Source of the DNA: Chloroflexota bacterium
GTDB taxonomy: Bacteria; Chloroflexota; Anaerolineae; Aggregatilineales; J027
Direction: 5' to 3'
Assembly (NCBI GenBank): GCA_024434115.1
Contig: QMIT01000014.1
Location: 62,001-126,000, forward strand
DNA: 64,000 nucleotides
Shown here: positions 47,593 through 58,364 of the stretch, piece by piece
Position numbering within the stretch: the first letter of the stretch is position 1
Layout of the letters: every line of letters begins with the position of its first letter
Made by a program: the position numbers and the translations under genes
The notes under the pieces: model-generated
What the model was told of the DNA's origin: nothing
Seen by the model: the letters and a program-made list of their open reading frames with translations, nothing else
Database searches by the model: none

Positions 47593-47911
47593 AGTCATTA
47601 TTATAATCATCAGGAAATTGAATGGCAGGTTCGTCAATCAGCGGTGGGTTTTCATCTTCGGCTAAAAGGGTCATTGCTTCGGCTTCGTAAGGCGTGGGGA
47701 CAAGAACATGAATCGCGCCGATACCGATGGTAATGCCCATCGCACGCGCCGCACCGTCTTGCTGGATAAATACCGGGATTTCGGCTGTCCGTAAGAGACC
47801 CGCGATTACTTCAGCCTCAAAGGAACTGGTGCAATCCGCGACCACTGACCACGATTTTGGGGGTGGTTGACGACGGGGACGCAAAAATCGCATGTCAATG
47901 GCCTTCGCCAT
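47558..47911 (-). CDS. DUF2007-like small regulatory protein
   Basis: A 117-residue protein. Residues about 22-85 read SFEAEVIAGLLRTAEIPVFI ... IHVLVPTPYEAEAMTLL, the pattern of DUF2007 'putative signal transducing protein' domains (ferredoxin-like fold). The C-terminal 30 residues are acidic and Asn/Asp-rich. It overlaps the upstream kinase gene by 17 bp and the downstream pentapeptide gene by about 35 bp, so the cluster is co-transcribed. Confidence 0.75.
   Translation of the reverse strand: MAKAIDMRFLRPRRQPPPKSWSVVADCTSSFEAEVIAGLLRTAEIPVFIQQDGAARAMGITIGIGAIHVLVPTPYEAEAMTLLAEDENPPLIDEPAIQFPDDYNNDYEDDTPDEPPV
47600..47628 (-). promoter_or_regulatory. internal promoter for the pentapeptide-repeat gene
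   Basis: Minus strand: -35 CTGCCA (47628-47623), 17-bp spacer, -10 TATAAT (47605-47600), then seven bases to ATG 47592. It lies within the coding end of the DUF2007-like gene. Geometry is the same as at 22095-22131. Confidence 0.45.
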
Positions 47912-48911
47912 AACAGGGCAGCATGACGGTGAAGGTTGTGCCCTGATTGACTTGGCTCTCTACCCAAATGCGTCCGCCGTGCTGCTCGACAATGCTTTGG
48001 ACAATCGAAAGCCCCAAGCCTGTGCCTACAGTATCGCCAACGACATTGCTGGCGCGGTAGAACTTGCTGAAAATATAGGGTTGATCTTCGGGCAGCACAC
48101 CGATACCCGTATCCGCCACAATCAATAATACAAAGTCGCTTTGGGGGGTGAGTTCGACTGTGATACGTCCACCCGCCGGGGTGTATTTAATGGCGTTATC
48201 GAGTAGCTGATGGACGAGTTGGCGTAGTTGGATGGGGTTGCCGAGGACAAAGGGTAATTTTTCGGGTGCGTAAAATTCGACCTGCTGATATTTCTCGTTG
48301 ATTTGCTGATGCAGTCCTTCCAACGCATATTGAACCATCATCTGCATCTGGACGGTTTTGCGATCTGTCTCCAAAACCGCGCCAACTTTTTCGAGTTCCT
48401 GCAAATTATTGAGGAGGGCGGTGATGGAATGCACGCTGAAAATGATACGTCCGATGAAATTACGCTGTTGGTCATTCAGCGGCCCCATACGCTCCAACAA
48501 TTCGATGTAACCGATGATGGCGGTCAAGGGCGAACGCACATCGCGGGTGACGGCCCCCACAAATTCATTCCGCAGACGGCTGAGTTCTTTGAGGTTGGTG
48601 ATGTCTTGCATCATGACCAACGACCCCACACCGGGTAATTCCACCCGTTCGGCGCTGTAGACTTGATTGCGCTCGGTGAAATTGACTTCGCGGCGGGTGT
48701 GCTGACCTTCCCCCTCGGTTAACAGGGCCAAAATATCGGGGTTTTTGATAACGCGGCGGAGGGCTTGACCAGCGGTGGGAGCATTGCCTAGTCCAAATAG
48801 ATGGGAGGCGGCTTGATTGCAGAACAAAATATGCTCGTGATGGTCAATAGCGATCACGGGAGTATTCACACTTTGAAGAAGGATATCTAGTGCGTTAATT
48901 GTACTCACCAT
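47895..48911 (-). CDS. PAS-domain histidine kinase homologue lacking the phospho-acceptor His
   Basis: A 338-residue cytosolic protein. A PAS domain (about 8-105) is followed by a HisKA-like dimerisation helix pair (about 108-175) and an intact HATPase domain (N-box LLDNAIKYTP, DTGIGV, GTGLGLSIV). The H-box reads VTRDVRSPLTAI: Arg123 (codon CGC) stands where the phosphorylated His should be. It therefore cannot autophosphorylate conventionally and may be a pseudokinase or phosphatase partner. It is preceded 32 bp upstream by a REC-GAF protein, its likely partner. Confidence 0.9.
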   Translation of the reverse strand: MVSTINALDILLQSVNTPVIAIDHHEHILFCNQAASHLFGLGNAPTAGQALRRVIKNPDILALLTEGEGQHTRREVNFTERNQVYSAERVELPGVGSLVMMQDITNLKELSRLRNEFVGAVTRDVRSPLTAIIGYIELLERMGPLNDQQRNFIGRIIFSVHSITALLNNLQELEKVGAVLETDRKTVQMQMMVQYALEGLHQQINEKYQQVEFYAPEKLPFVLGNPIQLRQLVHQLLDNAIKYTPAGGRITVELTPQSDFVLLIVADTGIGVLPEDQPYIFSKFYRASNVVGDTVGTGLGLSIVQSIVEQHGGRIWVESQVNQGTTFTVMLPCYGEGH

Positions 48912-48943
48912 TTAAAACAAGCCGTTCCTTCCAATAGCCGCTC

Positions 48944-50104
48944 TCATAAGGGTGTGGAGTCGGTAGAGGTTAACTGCCCGATCAACGCACGCATCTGCTC
49001 GGCTTTTTGTGTCAAGTCCAACAGTTGAGTCGAAAGCTGGGGCGATAGTTTAGGGATATTGGCAAGGCTGGCAAGTGTTTCCTGCATTTGACCTAAGGGG
49101 ACAAATACCCCACTCGAAATCTTCTGATCGCGGAGTTTTAGGGTGTTATAGGCGGCTTCGAGGCTTTTGGCACGCTGCTCCAATGCGTTAAACAGGCGGG
49201 CGTTGACAATGGCAATCGCGGCGTAATCGGCCAATGTGTTAATGACTTCACCGAGGCGGTCTTCAAAGCCCTTTTTGCGGCGATGATTACCCACTGTTAA
49301 CACACCAATTGCTTTACCATTGACCACCATCGGGGCATAGACCGTCGCCAAAATATCGCGGGAGAGCTTAAAGCGCTTCAATCCATCGCCTTCGACCACA
49401 AGCGGTTGCTGGCTAGTCATCACCAATTTCGCCAATTCATCGCGCATGGGTTCACCCAATTTTTCCTGCATGACCAGCGTCAAATTTTTGCCAGCACGTA
49501 GAATCAAATCAGTCGAATTGGGTTCTTGCAGCAGGAGGGTCGCGTAATCCGCCCCACTGACGGCTAATGCACCTGCCAGCACTGCATCAAACATCCCATC
49601 AAGGCCGCGCATGGCCGTGAGGGTTTGGCCCAACGTGGCGAGGGTGGTTAATTCTTTGATACGGGCTTCCAATTCGATGTTGCTTTGGCGTAATTTCTCG
49701 GTGAGGCCGTCGCGCTCTTTACGCAGGCGTACATCGGCAAGGGCACGCTGCACCACCGACATCATCTCGGCTTCGCGGATGGGCTTGGTGATATAGTCGG
49801 TTGCGCCAAAACGGAACGCTTCTATCGCATCTTTTTCACTACCACGCTTGACCCCCACGATAATCGGCCCGGTATATTGGCGGGATTTGATCGCCACCAA
49901 CATATCTTTCCCGGTCAGACCGGGCATGACCAAATCTATATAGATCAGGTCGGGTTTGCGCTTTTCGACCATCGCCACGCCTTCCACCCCGTCACGCGCC
50001 TCTAATACCTCGTATTGGGTGGGGCGAAAAATCTGGTCTTTTAGGAGGTCACGTACTTCAACGTCGTCATCTACGATTAATATCCGTTCCATTTGTTTTG
50101 TCAT
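48944..50104 (-). CDS. response regulator with GAF domain
   Basis: A 386-residue protein with a receiver (about 7-122, DDD at 12-14, phospho-acceptor D57 in YIDLVMPG, K109), coiled linker (125-160), GAF domain (about 165-315) and a C-terminal helical region (about 318-386). There is no DNA-binding or enzymatic output, so the signal likely passes by protein contact. The position before the kinase homologue suggests a joint pathway. ATG start without an obvious ribosome site; TTGAAT, 16 bp, GATAAG lies directly upstream, so the mRNA may be leaderless. Confidence 0.9.
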   Translation of the reverse strand: MTKQMERILIVDDDVEVRDLLKDQIFRPTQYEVLEARDGVEGVAMVEKRKPDLIYIDLVMPGLTGKDMLVAIKSRQYTGPIIVGVKRGSEKDAIEAFRFGATDYITKPIREAEMMSVVQRALADVRLRKERDGLTEKLRQSNIELEARIKELTTLATLGQTLTAMRGLDGMFDAVLAGALAVSGADYATLLLQEPNSTDLILRAGKNLTLVMQEKLGEPMRDELAKLVMTSQQPLVVEGDGLKRFKLSRDILATVYAPMVVNGKAIGVLTVGNHRRKKGFEDRLGEVINTLADYAAIAIVNARLFNALEQRAKSLEAAYNTLKLRDQKISSGVFVPLGQMQETLASLANIPKLSPQLSTQLLDLTQKAEQMRALIGQLTSTDSTPL

Positions 50105-50184: not shown

Positions 50185-50634
50185 TTATTCAAAAATCCAG
50201 CGTTCGGTGTCGCGTGTCCAGTTGACCAATTCGGCATTGCTAAAGAATAACGCCACTTCGCGGGCAGCGGCGGCTTGACCATCGGAGCCATGCACCAAAT
50301 TGCGGCCAATTTCCATACCTAGATCGCCACGAATGGTGCCGGGGGCGGCTTCGACGGGGTTGGTTTTGCCAATCGTGCCACGTGCCGCTTCGATGGCGTT
50401 TTTGCCTTCCAGCGCAATCACGACCACCGGGCCACTGATAATGTAGCTGACGAGGCTTTCATAAAATTTCTTGCCGACATGTTCCGCATAATGCTTTTCG
50501 GCTAATTCACGGCTGATTTGAATAAATTTCATCCCGGCAATACGCAGACCGCGTGCCTCAAAACGGCGGATAATTTCCCCGGTCAGACCACGCTGTACGG
50601 CATCGGGCTTGACGATAATCAGTGTACGTTCCAA
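50185..50634 (-). CDS. ndk: nucleoside diphosphate kinase
   Basis: A 149-residue enzyme of full family length. It moves phosphate between nucleoside tri- and diphosphates via a phosphohistidine, H115 in NLVHGSDG. Other motifs are the start TLIIVKPDAVQRG and FSNAELVNW near the C-terminus. The start codon is TTG with GGGAG nine bases upstream; no other start is in frame nearby. It sits between two terminators, so it is a single transcription unit. Confidence 0.97.
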   Translation of the reverse strand: MERTLIIVKPDAVQRGLTGEIIRRFEARGLRIAGMKFIQISRELAEKHYAEHVGKKFYESLVSYIISGPVVVIALEGKNAIEAARGTIGKTNPVEAAPGTIRGDLGMEIGRNLVHGSDGQAAAAREVALFFSNAELVNWTRDTERWIFE

Positions 50635-50831: not shown

Positions 50832-53417
50832 TTAGAGTTGATTCAGAGCACCACGATAGGTGTCGAGCGCTTCCTGTAAACGGCCCTGTCGCATATAGGT
50901 ATCGCCCAACAGACGGCGCACCTTTGGATTTTGGGGTTGGCGGGTGGCGAGTCGGGACAGATCGTCGGAAACCACCTCGAGCGCCGCCGAGGATTCGACC
51001 AGCGTCTCGTAATGGTCAAGGCTGGCTCCCAGATTGCCCACTTTCTCCAATTCACGGGCCAAATTCAGACGTGTATGGTGATCGCTCGGATTTTGTTCTA
51101 GCGAGGCTTGATATTGTGCAAAACCAGCCGGAACGAGAGCCGGAGATGACGGCGGTGGCACAGGTTGGGCGACTTGGCGCGAACTGGCAGCCGGGGCGAC
51201 TACTGGCGTGGGTGATGGTGGCGGTGCCATTGGCGGCACGCTGGGCATGGGGGTCGGTGTCATCACCACAGGCGGCTGATGATAGACGGGCTGGGCGGGT
51301 GCGACATAGACCGGCGCAGGGGGTGTCTCCACCACAGGCGCTTGATACCATGAGGGCAGACCCCCCTCTTGGGCAACCGGGAGATGTTCTTCAACCTCAG
51401 CCGAAGTTTCGGATGGCGTCTGAGCAAGGTACGCGAGTTCGGGCTGTGCAGTGGTGGCTTCAGATGGGGCATTTTCCGCCACAAAACTCAACGGATCCAT
51501 GACGGGTTCGCTTAACCAATCCGGGGTGGCGACTTCGGAAATCGCTTCGGGTTCAACTACCTGTGAGCTAATCAACCATTCCGGTAAATCACTGTCAGTG
51601 GGAACGACTTGGCTGCTCATTTCTTGCAACCAGTCCGGTAAATCAGTCGGTTCAGACGCGATAATTTCGGTTTCAACAGGCACTTCAAACATGCTGATGT
51701 CGAATTCCGGTAAGACCTCGGTTTCCGGCATGATCTCTTCGACTTTGGAGACAGCCTCGGCGTACCAATCTGGTTCAGCGGGCGGGGTTAGGCTTTCATG
51801 CTGCAAGGCATATTCTTCATCGAGCGCAGCCGCCCAATCATCACCACTTTGGGCATAACCCGCAATAAAATCCGAAGCCGCCAGAATCTCATCTTGCATT
51901 GGAGCAAAGCTGGTTGTGTCTTCTAGCGTAAATTCGGGTAGTTCGATTTCGGGTAAGTCCTGCACCATCGGGCTTTCAGATAGCCAATCCGGTAAATCGG
52001 TTGGGGCTGGCGGCGGCAAAATCTCGTCAATCAGGGCCGGGAAAGTATCTTCTATCACCGGACCCGCTTCGAGGTCAGAAGGCATTTGGGCAGCCAACCA
52101 GTCTGGGACTTGGCCGGGGGCAATTTCGTCGCTCTCGACGGGATGAGTGGCCTCAAATTCGTCATTCAAAGGCGTAAGGGCGGCTAAAGATTCAGCCTTC
52201 TTCATCAGCCATGCCAATTCAGCTTCGGGGGTAATTGTGCCGTGTGCCTGCGCTTCGGCGATTTGCTCATCCGTCAACCCCTCAATGGAGGTAATCATGT
52301 GCGAGGCAGGTTGGGGCGTGGTTTCATAACTAAGATCAAAGCCGGGAATGTCATCCGCCGCCATGCTGCTGAGGAAGTCGGGTATACCTGCGCTCTGATC
52401 ACCGGCCAACTCGTTAAGCCACGATAAGGACGAAGTATCCTCGGTGGGTTCGGTCAGTGATTCGGGCAGGGGCATGGATGGCACAGGTGGTTGATAGGAT
52501 TCGCTGCTGGCAAATGATTGCCCCGACGTAGTCTCAAAGGGTGAATAGGGGACATAACCGGGTTCGTCAATGACCACACTGTTGGGGTCAATTTCAGGGA
52601 TTTCATAGTTAGCTGCCGTCATAAATTCATTGGGGTCTGCACCCTGACGCGCCGCCAAACTTTCCAACCATGCCATCGGATCAACATCCACCGGAATTTC
52701 GCCATCTTGGGGCACCCATGCTGCGGCTGGTGTTTCAAAACTGAACTCAGGGGCAGCTTGTTCGGCAGGAACTTCGTAGGGCTGCGTTGCCGATGTTTCA
52801 AAGGTGGCTGGTTCTTCAACTGGATGACTTGGGCCAGCGGCGGCAGATAATGGACGGCTAAATTTTTCGGAGGGGACATAACCGGGTTCGTCAATGACCA
52901 CGCTGTTGGGATCAACTTCGGGAATTTCATAGTTGGCCGCTGTGGTGAATTCGTTGGGATTCGCTCCTTGACGCGCCGCCAGACTTTCCAACCACGCCAT
53001 TGGATCCATGCCACCGAGGGGATCATTGGCATCAAGGGCTGCTGAAGCCACTGGTTCGATGGGAGGTGGTTCTTGGAATGAATAGTCCATCATGGTGGGT
53101 TGTTCGGCATAGCTGTAGTCGTAAGCTGGAGCCTCCACAGGTGGTGTAGGCGGGACCTCGATAGGCTCGGTAGCCTGCGGGGGTTCTTCGACGGGACGAC
53201 TGGGGCCAGCGGCGGCGGATAATGGACGGCTGAATTTTTCGGAGGGGACATAGCCGGGTTCATCAATCACCACGCTGTTGGGGTCAATTTCGGGCACCGA
53301 CATATCCGCTGTGGTCATAAATTCTTGCGGATTTGCGCCCTGTCGTGCCGCAAGGCTCTCCAACCAACGCATTTGCTCTTCAAGTGTCATGTTCTCAAAA
53401 TCTGGCATGTCGCCCAT
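50832..53417 (-). CDS. giant acidic repeat protein with C-terminal TPR and PDWL motifs
   Basis: An 861-residue protein, mostly disordered and acidic. Three copies of a roughly 60-residue unit (about 16-78, 140-203 and 248-292) share WLESLAARQGANP and DPNSVVIDEPGYVPSEKF. The middle (about 310-690) holds scattered PDWL, PDWLSE and PEWLIS motifs, then a Pro-rich linker (about 690-770). A TPR domain follows (about 775-861, HHTRLNLARELEKVGNLGAS). No signal or membrane segment. ATG with AAGGAGG ten bases upstream, 69 bp after the still larger TPR gene; the two share motif style. Role unknown; a scaffold binding several partners is my inference. Confidence 0.85.
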   Translation of the reverse strand: MGDMPDFENMTLEEQMRWLESLAARQGANPQEFMTTADMSVPEIDPNSVVIDEPGYVPSEKFSRPLSAAAGPSRPVEEPPQATEPIEVPPTPPVEAPAYDYSYAEQPTMMDYSFQEPPPIEPVASAALDANDPLGGMDPMAWLESLAARQGANPNEFTTAANYEIPEVDPNSVVIDEPGYVPSEKFSRPLSAAAGPSHPVEEPATFETSATQPYEVPAEQAAPEFSFETPAAAWVPQDGEIPVDVDPMAWLESLAARQGADPNEFMTAANYEIPEIDPNSVVIDEPGYVPYSPFETTSGQSFASSESYQPPVPSMPLPESLTEPTEDTSSLSWLNELAGDQSAGIPDFLSSMAADDIPGFDLSYETTPQPASHMITSIEGLTDEQIAEAQAHGTITPEAELAWLMKKAESLAALTPLNDEFEATHPVESDEIAPGQVPDWLAAQMPSDLEAGPVIEDTFPALIDEILPPPAPTDLPDWLSESPMVQDLPEIELPEFTLEDTTSFAPMQDEILAASDFIAGYAQSGDDWAAALDEEYALQHESLTPPAEPDWYAEAVSKVEEIMPETEVLPEFDISMFEVPVETEIIASEPTDLPDWLQEMSSQVVPTDSDLPEWLISSQVVEPEAISEVATPDWLSEPVMDPLSFVAENAPSEATTAQPELAYLAQTPSETSAEVEEHLPVAQEGGLPSWYQAPVVETPPAPVYVAPAQPVYHQPPVVMTPTPMPSVPPMAPPPSPTPVVAPAASSRQVAQPVPPPSSPALVPAGFAQYQASLEQNPSDHHTRLNLARELEKVGNLGASLDHYETLVESSAALEVVSDDLSRLATRQPQNPKVRRLLGDTYMRQGRLQEALDTYRGALNQL
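52542..53372 (-). repeat. three coding repeats of about 190 bp
   Basis: Segments 53372-53184, 53000-52809 and 52676-52542 encode near-identical WLESLAARQG ... IDEPGYVP units, separated by divergent sequence. The third is shorter. Confidence 0.8.
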
Positions 53418-53486
53418 GACGGACTATCCTCCTTATGGTTGGCTGGTGTATTGAGAGGCCAACACGAGATACAAAAAACACAAAAT

Positions 53487-56400
53487 TTATTTAAACCAAT
53501 CGGGCGGCGTGTCATCATCCTCGCCAAAATCGGACTCATTAAAGTCTGCTGACTCATCAAAGCCTATTGAGGGTGCAGCCCCTTTTTGTCGGCGTAACCA
53601 AGGCGGGTCGTGATCAAAATCAAATGATGCGGGTGTAGCCACCGGAATTGCTTCTGGTTCCACTTCAGCGGTGGGTTCTCGGCGTTTCCCAAATAAGCGC
53701 CGACCCCGTTTTTGTTTTGGTTTGGCTGGCTCATCCCATTGCATTGGGAACGCATCATCAAATTCCATATTAGTATCTGGCAAATCGCGTTTGGGGGCAA
53801 CTGGGGTCACTTCTGCCTTATCGAAGCCAAAATCTGCCTCATCTGGAAATTCTTCGGGCAGCGTCGTTGGAACCGGTGACGAAGGACGGGTAGCCGCTTC
53901 GACTTCTTCGGGTTTCAGTTCACGCAGTTTAAAACCCGTTAGTTGATCGAGTTCAGAAATCATGGCCTCGGTTTGGTCAGGGATGCGATTTTGATCCGCG
54001 CTGGTGATCGAGGCAAGGAATACATCAATATTGTCTACCGGCTTGCGCTCTTCAGATTCTCTGGCAGAGGCGCGTGCCGGGCGCTCATCAAAATCCACTG
54101 CCATTTGAATGTCAGAGGTGTCAAGCCGAATATCATCACTCAGCCAATCGGGTGCAACCGCACTTTCAACTTCTGATTCTTCCAACAGAAGGTCGTCTTG
54201 CCACTCGGCGGCCATGCCTGCTTCAGTTGATTCTTCAAGCTCTTGTTCATCCAGATCAAGCCAGTCTGTGCGTTCCTCAGCAACCACCGACATATCTTGG
54301 AAAAGATCATCGAAGCCTGCAACAGGAGTTTCAGGTTCTTCCTCTATTTCCACCCCGGCCAGCCAGTCGGGCAGTGCTGCGGCGGGTTCGGTCATCGGAA
54401 TTGGAGCGCTCGGCTCGGATTTACCAATGGAAGAGAGCCAATCGGCGGCGCTTTCGGGTTCGGCAATCTCACTCTCGACATCCTCTAACCAGCCCGTATG
54501 CGGTTCGCCAATTTCGGAGAGATCGCCAAATAGGGTATCCATGTCGGATTTGGCAGTGACTTGAGGCTCTATTGCTTCATTGTCATCAAAATCGCCACTT
54601 AGCCAATCGGGGATCTGCGCGGCTTGCGGAATGGCTTCTGGTGGTTCAGTTTGTCCAAATGAGGAGAGCCAATCGGCGGCACTTTCGGGTTCGGCTGTGC
54701 CTTCTTCCAAATCATCCAGCCAACCCGTGCGGGGAGCCTCAATTTCAGACAGATCGTCAAAGAGGCTGCCAAATTCGGGTTGTGAGGTCTGTGGGATGGC
54801 TTCTGGTGGTTCAGCTTGTCCAAATGAGGAGAGCCAATCGGAAGCGCTCTCCGGTTTGGCAGTGCCTTCTTCCAAGTCATCCAGCCAACCCGTGCGCGGT
54901 GCTTCAATTTCTGAGAGGTCGTCAAAGAGACTGCCGAATTCGTGTTCTGGGGTCTGCGGGATAGGCGCAGGCGGTTCAATCTGCCCAAATGAAGAGAGCC
55001 AGTCGGCGGCACTCTCCGGTTGGGCGGTGCCTTCTTCCAAATCATCCAACCAACCCGTGCTGGGGGTACTGATGTCGGAAAGGTCATCAAAGGCACTTTC
55101 GAAGCTCTGGCTACTTGGCACCCTCACCTCACCAAAGTCATCTCCTAACAGTCTGCTCAGGTCATCATCGGAAACTTCCGTCCCCAGCGTATTTGACAGG
55201 GCTGAGGGCATGGAGAGCAGCCAATCGTCGCTGATTTCTTCACTTAAATCTACGGTTGCCCCAGCGGTGGGCGATTCAAAATCCGTGAGCCACCCGGTAC
55301 TGGGTTTATCAACCGCCGCGAGGTCGTCCACTGGAGCGCCGAACATCTTGTCAAAGTCAGCATCCGAAACATCCAACTTGGCAGATGGGGTTTCCAGCGA
55401 GGACGCCCAATCATCGGCGGGGGCACTATCTAGTTCGGTAAGCCATCCAGTGCTTGGTTCACCAATAGCTGAGAGGTCGTCCGCCGGAGTGCCGAACATC
55501 TTATCAAAGTCGGCATCCGAGACATCCAGTTTGGCGGATGGGGTTTCCAGCGAGGACGCCCAATCATTGGCGGGGGCATTATCTAGTTCTGTTAGCCACC
55601 CGGTACTTGGTTCACCAATGGCTGAAAATTCATCCACTGGGGTGCTGAACATCGCATCTAATTCACTGTCGGTTACTTCGGGGGCAACCGACTGGATCGG
55701 CTCAATGCCGCGCATCCATTCGGGAACTTCTTCATTCTCATCAACGGCGAGGAAGTCGGGCATATCGGGCACAGCGGCCTGCTGAACATCGTCTAACCAA
55801 GCCGTTCCCGGAATGAGATCATCGCTGAATAGGTCGGTGAATTCTTCATCCGAAACGTCTTGGGCAATGGATGAGGTCTGAGGTGGAACGTTCAGCCATG
55901 CGGCAAGATCATCTACAGGTGTTTGTTCTGAAGCGGTTTCGAGTGGTTCAGCCGAGACAGGGAGTTCCGACATGGCTTCACTCTCAAGCACATTCCAATC
56001 CACTTCGTCTAAACTGGACGCTCGACCCGGTGAGGCAAACACATCACTATCGGTATCTTGTCGCCAAGGAAGATCACCTGTGACCCCTAAACGACTTGGG
56101 GTGGAGATGCTGGGTTGTTGAGGAAGTTGGCTATCGAAGAGGACAGCGAATTCATCAATCGAACCCGTTTCGGCGGATGCTTCGGACGTACCCTGTCGCC
56201 AAGGAAGATCACCTGTGACCCCCAAACGTTGTTCGGCGGCAGGGGGTGGCGTGACTAATTCATCTTCAAACAGTGAAGCAAATTCTTCAGCGGATTCTTG
56301 CTCGACTTTTTCGAGAGTCAGCGAAGGGGTATCCGTTGCTACAGCATCGGTCAGCCAATCAATTTCGTCGCCAGTAGCGGGGGATTCCTCATCTAATTGG

Positions 56401-58364
56401 AAAATGGGCGAGGTGGCCGACGCTTCCGTGCTTTCTGTCTCCCCCATCAGCCAATCATCGGTTTCAAAAGAAAAAGTGGGTTCTTCCTGTGCCGCGATTT
56501 CGGGCAGCATGTCTGTGCCGGATATTGAGGCGGCTGATTGCGCGGGCACATCGGTTAGCCAATCGGGTGTTTCATCTTCAAATAGGGTTGTAAACTCGGC
56601 CTGATCCTCACCCTCAGATAAATCCGGGGCATCGGACAGCCAGCTTGGAGTTCCGGCAGGCATGGACGTGGGGGCTTCGACAGCGCCAAAATCCTCAAAC
56701 AGAGTCTCTTCGTCCCACAATGTCTGGCTAGGCTCGTTTGCTGCTGGTGTCGGGGATTCCTCGACCAACCAATCGGGTAGAGCGTCTTCTGCCTCTTCGG
56801 GTTTGCGGCCACCCATTGCCAACAATGCCGCCACTTCTTCAGCGGATGGTGGGCGAGCAGCGGCCCGTAATTGTTCTAATTCCTCATCGGGATTCTCGCC
56901 AAAACTGAATTCTTCGACATCGCCGAAAATGGAGGGTGGTTCATTGTCGGCAGCGAATTGAGGCTCTTCACTTGACCAACCGGGTAGTTCTTCGTCTTCC
57001 GCCTGTTGGATTTCTGCCAACAATCCCGTGAAACCTGTAGATTTACGCGCAGGGGGTGCGGATTCAGTGGTGGTGAAATCTGGTATATCATCCAACCAAC
57101 TAGGGGTTGGTGCTACCGCTTCTGGTTTCTGGCTCGGCGATTCCGTCATCCAATCCGGCAAGGGTGCTTCGGCGGTGGTATCGCCAAATAGGTCACTGGC
57201 ATTGACGGTTGGGGCGGTTTCGGCGACATCGGCAAACCAATCGGGTAATTCATCTTCGCCCGAAACGGCAGGGGCAGGCGTCGGGGGCAGGCTGGCTTTG
57301 GCTGGACTGGGTTGACTCAACGAACTTGCCATCTCATTAAACCAGTCATCCGGGGCAGGCAAATCGGCGGTCTTGGGTTTGCCGCCAAAATCCGCGCCGG
57401 GGGTAAACCAATCCGGTAAATCATCGGCAGGGGTCGGACTCACCGCCTCGCTCATCCAATCGGGCATCTCTTGGGCGGTACTGCGTCCGGGGCTACGTGT
57501 TGGGGCAATGCTTTCGGGCGTATTGAATACATCGGTGATTTGGCTGATCCAATCCGGGGCAGGGCCAGCCACCGAGGTCGCCGCATCGGCTGTCCATTTG
57601 AGACGCGACAGCACAAAAGCCCCTTCCGGTAAGGTGGCCTGATTTTCGCTGCTATAGATTAAGCGCAGGCTTTCATACGGCGCGAGGGCTTCGACTTTTT
57701 CTAAGAAAGGTTTGGCGTCGTCGGGGCGGCGGGTTTCGATCCACAGTTTTGCCATCAGTAAATTCAATGGCAAACAGTCGGGCAGCACACGCAGCACCTC
57801 TAGGGCGAGTTCACCTGCCTCTAACAAATGTCCCGCGTCCCACAATGCCGTTGCCAACCGAACACGCAAATCTAAGCGATTGGGTTGTTCAACGAGACTT
57901 CGCCGCAGTTCCGTAATGGCCTGCTCATGCATCCCACTGTTGAGATACTGTTGAGCAAGTGCGGCGCGGGTGAGTTGGATTTTGCGAGGACTGGCTTCAT
58001 CCCGGCGTTTGTAGAGACGCTTGAGTTCGTTCAGGATGACGTTGTTGTTCGGCATCTGTTCATTGGCGCGTTCCATATGCCAGACAGCCTGATTCAACTG
58101 CTGTTGATTTTCGTAGATAGAACTCATGCCGACATGGGCCACAAAATCGTTGGGGTCGGCACTTAAAAGGCGCGGAAAAACTTGAGCGGCCTCTTCATGG
58201 CGGGCTTTTTCTAATAAAGCCTTGCCGAGTAAACGATATGTTTCCACATTTTTGGGGTAATGCTGCAAAATGTGGCGACAATGCCCGATGACTTCCTCTA
58301 GCGCTTCACGTTGAAGTAGGAGGTCAAGTTCATCTAGGTAGGCACGGAGAGTTGTTGTAGACAT
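53487..58364 (-). CDS. 1,600-residue TPR protein with disordered PDWL-motif tail
   Basis: About 1,625 residues, the largest gene here. Residues 1 to about 265 are tetratricopeptide repeats (for example EALEEVIGHCRHILQHYPKN). The remaining roughly 1,360 residues are acidic and disordered, carrying 35-40 short Trp motifs (PDWL, GWLDD, ADWLSS) alternating with acidic 'F-x-x-[LM]-F-x-[DE]' motifs (EFGSLFDDLSE, DFDKMFG). The C-terminus ends PPDWFK. Near-perfect 165-bp and 153-bp coding repeats occur. No signal peptide. Start at ATG 58364. Probably a cytosolic hub whose tail binds a partner many times; no known function. Confidence 0.87.
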   Translation of the reverse strand: MSTTTLRAYLDELDLLLQREALEEVIGHCRHILQHYPKNVETYRLLGKALLEKARHEEAAQVFPRLLSADPNDFVAHVGMSSIYENQQQLNQAVWHMERANEQMPNNNVILNELKRLYKRRDEASPRKIQLTRAALAQQYLNSGMHEQAITELRRSLVEQPNRLDLRVRLATALWDAGHLLEAGELALEVLRVLPDCLPLNLLMAKLWIETRRPDDAKPFLEKVEALAPYESLRLIYSSENQATLPEGAFVLSRLKWTADAATSVAGPAPDWISQITDVFNTPESIAPTRSPGRSTAQEMPDWMSEAVSPTPADDLPDWFTPGADFGGKPKTADLPAPDDWFNEMASSLSQPSPAKASLPPTPAPAVSGEDELPDWFADVAETAPTVNASDLFGDTTAEAPLPDWMTESPSQKPEAVAPTPSWLDDIPDFTTTESAPPARKSTGFTGLLAEIQQAEDEELPGWSSEEPQFAADNEPPSIFGDVEEFSFGENPDEELEQLRAAARPPSAEEVAALLAMGGRKPEEAEDALPDWLVEESPTPAANEPSQTLWDEETLFEDFGAVEAPTSMPAGTPSWLSDAPDLSEGEDQAEFTTLFEDETPDWLTDVPAQSAASISGTDMLPEIAAQEEPTFSFETDDWLMGETESTEASATSPIFQLDEESPATGDEIDWLTDAVATDTPSLTLEKVEQESAEEFASLFEDELVTPPPAAEQRLGVTGDLPWRQGTSEASAETGSIDEFAVLFDSQLPQQPSISTPSRLGVTGDLPWRQDTDSDVFASPGRASSLDEVDWNVLESEAMSELPVSAEPLETASEQTPVDDLAAWLNVPPQTSSIAQDVSDEEFTDLFSDDLIPGTAWLDDVQQAAVPDMPDFLAVDENEEVPEWMRGIEPIQSVAPEVTDSELDAMFSTPVDEFSAIGEPSTGWLTELDNAPANDWASSLETPSAKLDVSDADFDKMFGTPADDLSAIGEPSTGWLTELDSAPADDWASSLETPSAKLDVSDADFDKMFGAPVDDLAAVDKPSTGWLTDFESPTAGATVDLSEEISDDWLLSMPSALSNTLGTEVSDDDLSRLLGDDFGEVRVPSSQSFESAFDDLSDISTPSTGWLDDLEEGTAQPESAADWLSSFGQIEPPAPIPQTPEHEFGSLFDDLSEIEAPRTGWLDDLEEGTAKPESASDWLSSFGQAEPPEAIPQTSQPEFGSLFDDLSEIEAPRTGWLDDLEEGTAEPESAADWLSSFGQTEPPEAIPQAAQIPDWLSGDFDDNEAIEPQVTAKSDMDTLFGDLSEIGEPHTGWLEDVESEIAEPESAADWLSSIGKSEPSAPIPMTEPAAALPDWLAGVEIEEEPETPVAGFDDLFQDMSVVAEERTDWLDLDEQELEESTEAGMAAEWQDDLLLEESEVESAVAPDWLSDDIRLDTSDIQMAVDFDERPARASARESEERKPVDNIDVFLASITSADQNRIPDQTEAMISELDQLTGFKLRELKPEEVEAATRPSSPVPTTLPEEFPDEADFGFDKAEVTPVAPKRDLPDTNMEFDDAFPMQWDEPAKPKQKRGRRLFGKRREPTAEVEPEAIPVATPASFDFDHDPPWLRRQKGAAPSIGFDESADFNESDFGEDDDTPPDWFK
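54600..55056 (-). repeat. tandem 165-bp coding repeat
   Basis: Units start at 55056, 54891 and 54726 (exactly 165 bp apart), each encoding GWLDDLEEGTA ... ADWLSSFG ... EFGSLFDDLSEI. The third unit diverges after about 40 codons. Confidence 0.85.
55296..55601 (-). repeat. tandem 153-bp coding repeat
   Basis: Units start at 55601 and 55448, with a partial copy from 55295. Each encodes GWLTELD ... DWASSLETPSAKLDVSDADF ... MFG. Near-identity at DNA level suggests recent expansion. Confidence 0.85.

Follow-up and report, generated by a model that had tools for sequence, protein, structure and literature searches.

A candidate TPR-disorder-TPR scaffold of Chloroflexota and the tryptophan motif that it shares with a membrane protein

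Introduction

What might a bacterium do with two very large proteins, encoded side by side, that consist mostly of acidic disordered sequence studded with tryptophan? The question is raised by a pair of adjacent genes in a 64,000-nucleotide stretch of a Chloroflexota genome (contig QMIT01000014.1), the whole of which is termed the window here. The genes are designated BIG and SMALL. They had been noticed in a reading made from the sequence alone, which gave their coordinates and lengths correctly (1625 and 861 aa). SMALL begins 69 nt downstream of BIG and has an AAGGAGG-type ribosome site. We found no literature on PDWL, on DUF6754 or on disordered TPR proteins of the Anaerolineae. The features of the locus are as follows.

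58364-53487, minus strand: BIG, 1625 aa; N-terminal TPR and acidic disordered tail
57585..58364, minus strand: N-terminal TPR domain of BIG, residues 1-260; from Pfam TPR_19, AlphaFold and matches in relatives
53487..57509, minus strand: acidic disordered tail of BIG, residues 286-1625 (1340 aa); from composition, motif counts and purifying selection
53417-50832, minus strand: SMALL, 861 aa; disordered region followed by C-terminal TPR
51123..53417, minus strand: disordered N-terminal part of SMALL, residues 1-765; three long WLESLAARQGA-type and several PDWL-type motifs
50832..51122, minus strand: C-terminal TPR of SMALL, residues 766-861; Pfam TPR_16/TPR_17 just below cut-off, kept in 24 orthologues
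50185..50634, minus strand: ndk, nucleoside diphosphate kinase; conserved neighbour, downstream of the BIG-SMALL pair or of the fused gene

After ndk, on the same strand, come a histidine kinase and a response regulator (47895-50104); this pair is kept beside ndk within the genus only. In about 12 loci of the order a histone-deacetylase-like gene of the acetoin utilisation type is found directly upstream of BIG (e.g. L045 4211-5239); it is absent from that position in the window.

Results

The TPR domains

The sequence-only reading placed a TPR domain at the N-terminus of BIG and at the C-terminus of SMALL, and the Pfam matches agree. The former matches TPR_19 (E 1.2e-13) and the latter TPR_16 at residues 785-858 (E 1.7e-6, which narrowly misses the curated cut-off). 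Residues 1-230 of BIG are modelled by AlphaFold as helices with a pLDDT of ~97, and the domain closes with a strand at 251-253 that lies near the N-terminal strand. The SMALL-type C-terminal TPR is seen as five confident helices in the model of a fused homologue (L158). A Foldseek search matched both designed and natural TPRs, and the best PDB matches in sequence and fold are designed TPRs, OGT and PEX5. Judged by Pfam, AlphaFold and Foldseek together, these are TPR repeats predicted to fold as a solenoid. Kinesin light chain is absent among the PDB sequence and fold matches listed, and a closest relationship to it was not found.

How general is this protein? The TPR of BIG is matched in 56 of 61 genomes of relatives, most of them from the order, mainly with one strong match per genome. 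Across the class it is matched in 130 of 190 good genomes, and the family is present in 69 of 152 good genomes of a phylum sample. The BIG/SMALL family is conserved and widespread in Chloroflexota, and is uncharacterised.

The disordered regions and their motifs

The tail of BIG is strongly acidic (D+E 24%, K+R 4%) and contains 41 tryptophans, which are placed in a highly non-random manner. There are 32 W[LFMIV] pairs compared with 8.8 in shuffled sequences, and 14 occurrences of [PDE][DE]W[LFMIV] compared with 0.7 expected (maximum 3 in 200 shuffles), bearing out the original description of an acidic disordered tail rich in short Trp motifs. The disordered part of SMALL has 14 tryptophans, with 11 W[LFMIV] against 3.2 expected. 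It also carries three copies of a second, longer motif, WLESLAARQGA, the core of which is present in 23 of 24 split orthologues and in most of the fused proteins described below.

Conservation of the motifs in orthologues had been set as a point on which the earlier proposal could fail, and they are conserved. Tryptophan is the most conserved residue of the tail. Comparison with the most distant congener shows 38 of 41 tryptophans kept in BIG, where 64% of all residues are kept, and 14 of 14 in SMALL, where the value for all residues is 80%. With dN/dS of ~0.11-0.12 for the BIG tail and 0.07-0.09 for the disordered part of SMALL, both disordered parts are, by this measure, under purifying selection. 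The sequence and length of the BIG tail diverge fast, such that it can be aligned along its whole length only within the genus.

The sequence-only reading had also pointed to F-x-x-[LM]-F motifs alternating with those of tryptophan. These are real, with 9 occurrences against 0.25 expected, but their conservation is confined to the family of the window and only 0-2 are found elsewhere. They do not, therefore, accompany the Trp motif in general, and we have rejected FxxLF as a general second motif. At one locus (L050 7790-12046) the reading frame of BIG stops after 306 aa and is followed by open frames in other phases before SMALL, likely a frame break or an assembly fault in the tail.

Two genes or one

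A search of Chloroflexota genomes confirmed the proposed pairing of the two genes, which are adjacent or fused. Where the contig is long enough, nearly every locus of the order has SMALL directly downstream of BIG and ndk after it, an exception being a short BIG that runs into ndk (L070). The order BIG-(SMALL)-ndk is found at most loci with room, including those of other classes. In 18 related loci a single open reading frame comprises the TPR of BIG, a Trp-motif tail and the TPR of SMALL, with E-values for the C-terminal SMALL domain of 1e-24 to 3e-8. The fused proteins usually carry WLESLAA motifs and usually have ndk next to them, and the form is also found in the cultured Ornatilinea apprima (L200). 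Fusion in a single frame argues strongly for a joint function of the halves, and the best explanation is that BIG and SMALL are two halves of one scaffold.

Which state came first? In other classes all 15 loci with both TPRs have one open reading frame, and these group together on one side of the tree of BIG TPR domains. On this tree the split state needs four changes, three of which are forced by well-supported branches. From these sequence relationships the fused form, with disorder between two TPR domains, is most likely ancestral, and the pair in the window most likely arose by fission. 

Two further observations concern these loci. By eye, one fused protein (L175 10001-13933) contains a helix-hairpin-helix segment of ComEA-like type within its disordered part. 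Two records that contain this Chloroflexota locus are titled as the cyanobacterium Pleurocapsa minor (L192) and a Bacteroidetes bacterium (L162), which are probably wrong labels for these genomes.

A third carrier of the Trp motif

Motifs were counted genome-wide by a DNA pattern search for PDW[LF] codons. Apart from this locus, a scan of the whole genome from which the window derives shows clusters of PDW[LF] at a single further site (G000:C6:163153-164630). That site encodes the N-terminal part of a protein of 1116 aa that we term MEM (L076 7043-10393), which has two transmembrane segments near its C-terminus. A basic stretch ahead of the first of these would place the motif-bearing tail in the cytosol. 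The gene lies in a further cluster.

L076 5208-16001 (G000:C6): MEM cluster; DUF6754, MEM, two TM proteins, MutL-like actin-fold ATPase and P366

The cluster is strictly syntenic, in the order small protein, DUF6754, TM protein, MEM, TM protein, MutL-like ATPase, P366 and secreted protein. The ATPase matches PF13941 with E 7e-61. P366 is soluble, and has weak matches to a barrel-sandwich (biotinyl-like) segment and to a KOW-like segment. It also has a match to the Cpl-7 lysozyme repeat, for which a short WGNG stretch appears to be responsible.

MEM is present in 57 of the 61 sampled relatives and, across the class, in 131 of 190 good genomes. PDWL-type tails are found on MEM in 20 of the 21 order loci that we read, and the tails are motif-rich in other orders too.

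What varies with the motif?

Some lineages have lost the motif from MEM, and these are informative. In families f22 and f45 MEM lacks the Trp motif, P366 is missing and BIG is reduced to a tail-less TPR of 245-328 aa; no PDWL cluster was found among the matches listed for one f22 genome. Again in f2-g31 and g36 MEM is without the motif and P366 is absent. A motif-bearing MEM goes with the presence of P366 in 19 families (Fisher p 6e-4 by family, with no correction for phylogeny), and the two apparent exceptions are a contig that ends 136 nt past the MutL-like gene (G010) and a 73%-complete genome (G288). It could nonetheless be that a single system was degrading and that P366 and the motif simply went with it.

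The lengths of the open frames of BIG and MEM are also correlated, with rho 0.79 over 103 genomes and 0.85 over 34 family means; contig ends add noise to these values, which are hardly altered on allowing for genome size. Strict covariation of the motif between BIG and MEM is rejected. In f48 and f52 a motif-rich MEM, reaching 2661 aa in one case, is found with BIG undetectable, while in f2-g31 BIG retains Trp motifs (13 W[LFMIV] in G330) and its MEM has none. On account of these exceptions P366 tracks the motif of MEM better than does BIG. The sequence-only reading suggested multivalent binding to a folded partner, possibly the TPR of the other protein. The pattern of the motifs fits such binding, but the best co-occurrence is that of the MEM motif with P366 and not with BIG.

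The protein in other classes

We read 20 loci of other classes, in which the protein has 394-2083 aa and is mostly fused, with Trp motifs generally absent from the tail. In one Chloroflexus-type genome the tail of BIG repeats EPELTPFSLEELGLSPEEIAQLE in place of Trp motifs; at a locus of another class (L303 9532-14847) it comprises ~23 near-identical PFSLEELGLSPEEIA repeats. A second protein carrying the Chloroflexus-type repeat in the same genome was sought and rejected, since 23 of 23 exact DNA matches fall within BIG.

At 15 of the 20 loci (L303-L320) BIG is immediately followed downstream by a Roadblock/LC7 gene (Pfam E 1e-17), which precedes ndk at those loci that possess one. Several genomes of the Chloroflexus type have a RodA/FtsW gene further downstream. 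No Roadblock gene is found at the locus in the window or at any Anaerolineae locus that we fetched, and a link to a GTPase may therefore not apply there. Roadblock proteins of the MglB kind act on the polarity GTPase MglA, whose partners include the TPR proteins SgmX of Myxococcus and Bd2492 of Bdellovibrio, effectors of bacterial polarity (PMC11580455, PMC3983030). Like these, BIG would be a cytosolic TPR hub, and in other Chloroflexota classes it adjoins a Roadblock/LC7 (MglB-type) gene. The likeness has limits, as the papers on SgmX and Bd2492 describe TPRs and no repetitive motif tail (PMC11580455, PMC3983030), and the window locus is without a Roadblock gene.

Discussion

The reading that we favour, tentatively and at a little under an even chance, is that BIG and SMALL form a multivalent scaffold of the GTPase or polarity type, which in the Anaerolineae is docked by its motifs to the MEM complex. 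It is built on what we observe: the architecture, the enrichment and conservation of the motifs, the fused homologues, the synteny with ndk, the motif shared with MEM and the Roadblock neighbour in other classes. BIG and SMALL would be a cytosolic scaffold in which motif-rich acidic disorder is held between TPR domains. The Trp motifs may act as weak docking sites, many copies of which are read by a folded partner, and in this manner BIG, SMALL and the cytosolic tail of MEM would be pulled into one membrane-attached hub. The likeliest reader would be P366 or another soluble component of the MEM cluster, with the TPRs as possible additional readers, while the TPR ends would recruit clients. The presence of Roadblock beside BIG in other classes suggests, by analogy with bacterial cell-polarity modules, that a small GTPase system of the Ras-like kind governed assembly of the hub, at least ancestrally, and it may possibly be under such control still. 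A possible eukaryotic parallel is epsin, a multivalent disordered adaptor whose DPW motifs bind the AP2 appendage. There too many short, acidic Trp-containing motifs lie in one disordered chain that serves a membrane process.

A different reader is conceivable. The TPRs of BIG and SMALL might themselves bind the Trp motifs, within or between molecules, to create a self-assembling network or condensate in the manner of kinesin light chain; we consider this rather unlikely. The TPRs of kinesin light chain bind W-acidic motifs on their concave surface with low micromolar affinity, which is a precedent (PMC6214655). Both systems present a TPR solenoid together with short motifs of tryptophan plus acidic residues in disorder, of similar chemistry. 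Kinesin light chain, however, is a eukaryotic motor adaptor with one or few motifs per cargo where BIG and SMALL have tens, the tryptophan here usually precedes L, F or M in contrast to the cargo motifs, and the binding here is putative. The TPR residues Trp95, Tyr9 and His28 are shared by lineages with Trp-motif tails and are almost entirely missing where BIG is tail-less or has other motifs; Trp95 and the tail are both present in 45 cases and both absent in 28, with 4 discordant, though four rows of this comparison are biased, having come from a contig scan that used the AxWHxERA peptide as its seed. Among the 20 rows of other classes the Trp95 signature and a Trp-motif tail coincide once (L316). 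Yet the association reaches no significance because it represents only 2-4 independent changes. In the AlphaFold models the first PDWI motif has a pLDDT of 48-66 beside a TPR at ~97 and is undocked in cis. Docking of a PDWL motif in cis on the BIG TPR was thus rejected, from models of residues 1-330 and of a natural 811-aa fusion, in which only short low-confidence helices form at the motifs. Moreover the motif is also carried by MEM, outside the window, and in f52 MEM is hugely motif-rich where BIG is undetectable.

It is less probable again that the tail is mainly an acidic spacer or solubility region of low specificity, with Trp-Leu patches for weak self-association or protection by chaperones and no dedicated reader. 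Such a role would fit the fast divergence of the tail, alignable at full length only among congeners, and the completely different repeats of other classes. But 93-100% of the tryptophans persist as the tail drifts, the motif clusters are confined to two loci of the genome, and the motif has been lost from MEM along with P366 in at least three lineages. That BIG and SMALL work with ndk in nucleotide supply, for example as a scaffold gathering NDK and client enzymes, is improbable: ndk is the most persistent neighbour, in other classes and even beside the tail-less BIG of f22, but the link is one of adjacency alone, a housekeeping gene can be carried along, and some loci with room have no ndk (f45, L129, L188).

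Returning to the multivalent scaffold docked to the MEM complex, a broader proposal can be made, which we put forward as speculative and on balance doubtful. The Chloroflexota may possess their own class of GTPase-linked scaffold with disorder between two TPRs, ancestrally arranged as scaffold, Roadblock and ndk, in which the docking code has been exchanged between classes, with Trp motifs in the Anaerolineae and PFSLEELGL repeats in the Chloroflexus type. The Anaerolineae form would be coupled by its Trp motifs to a membrane complex of DUF6754, MEM, the MutL-like ATPase and P366. If this is true, a giant scaffold so dense in motifs would be a rare bacterial counterpart of the multivalent motif hubs of eukaryotes. 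It would open to experiment the question of how membrane or poles are organised in a bacterium that does without the known polarity proteins, and the natural fusion and fission of the protein, together with the swap of motifs between classes, would afford a rare view of the evolution of a motif-reader code.
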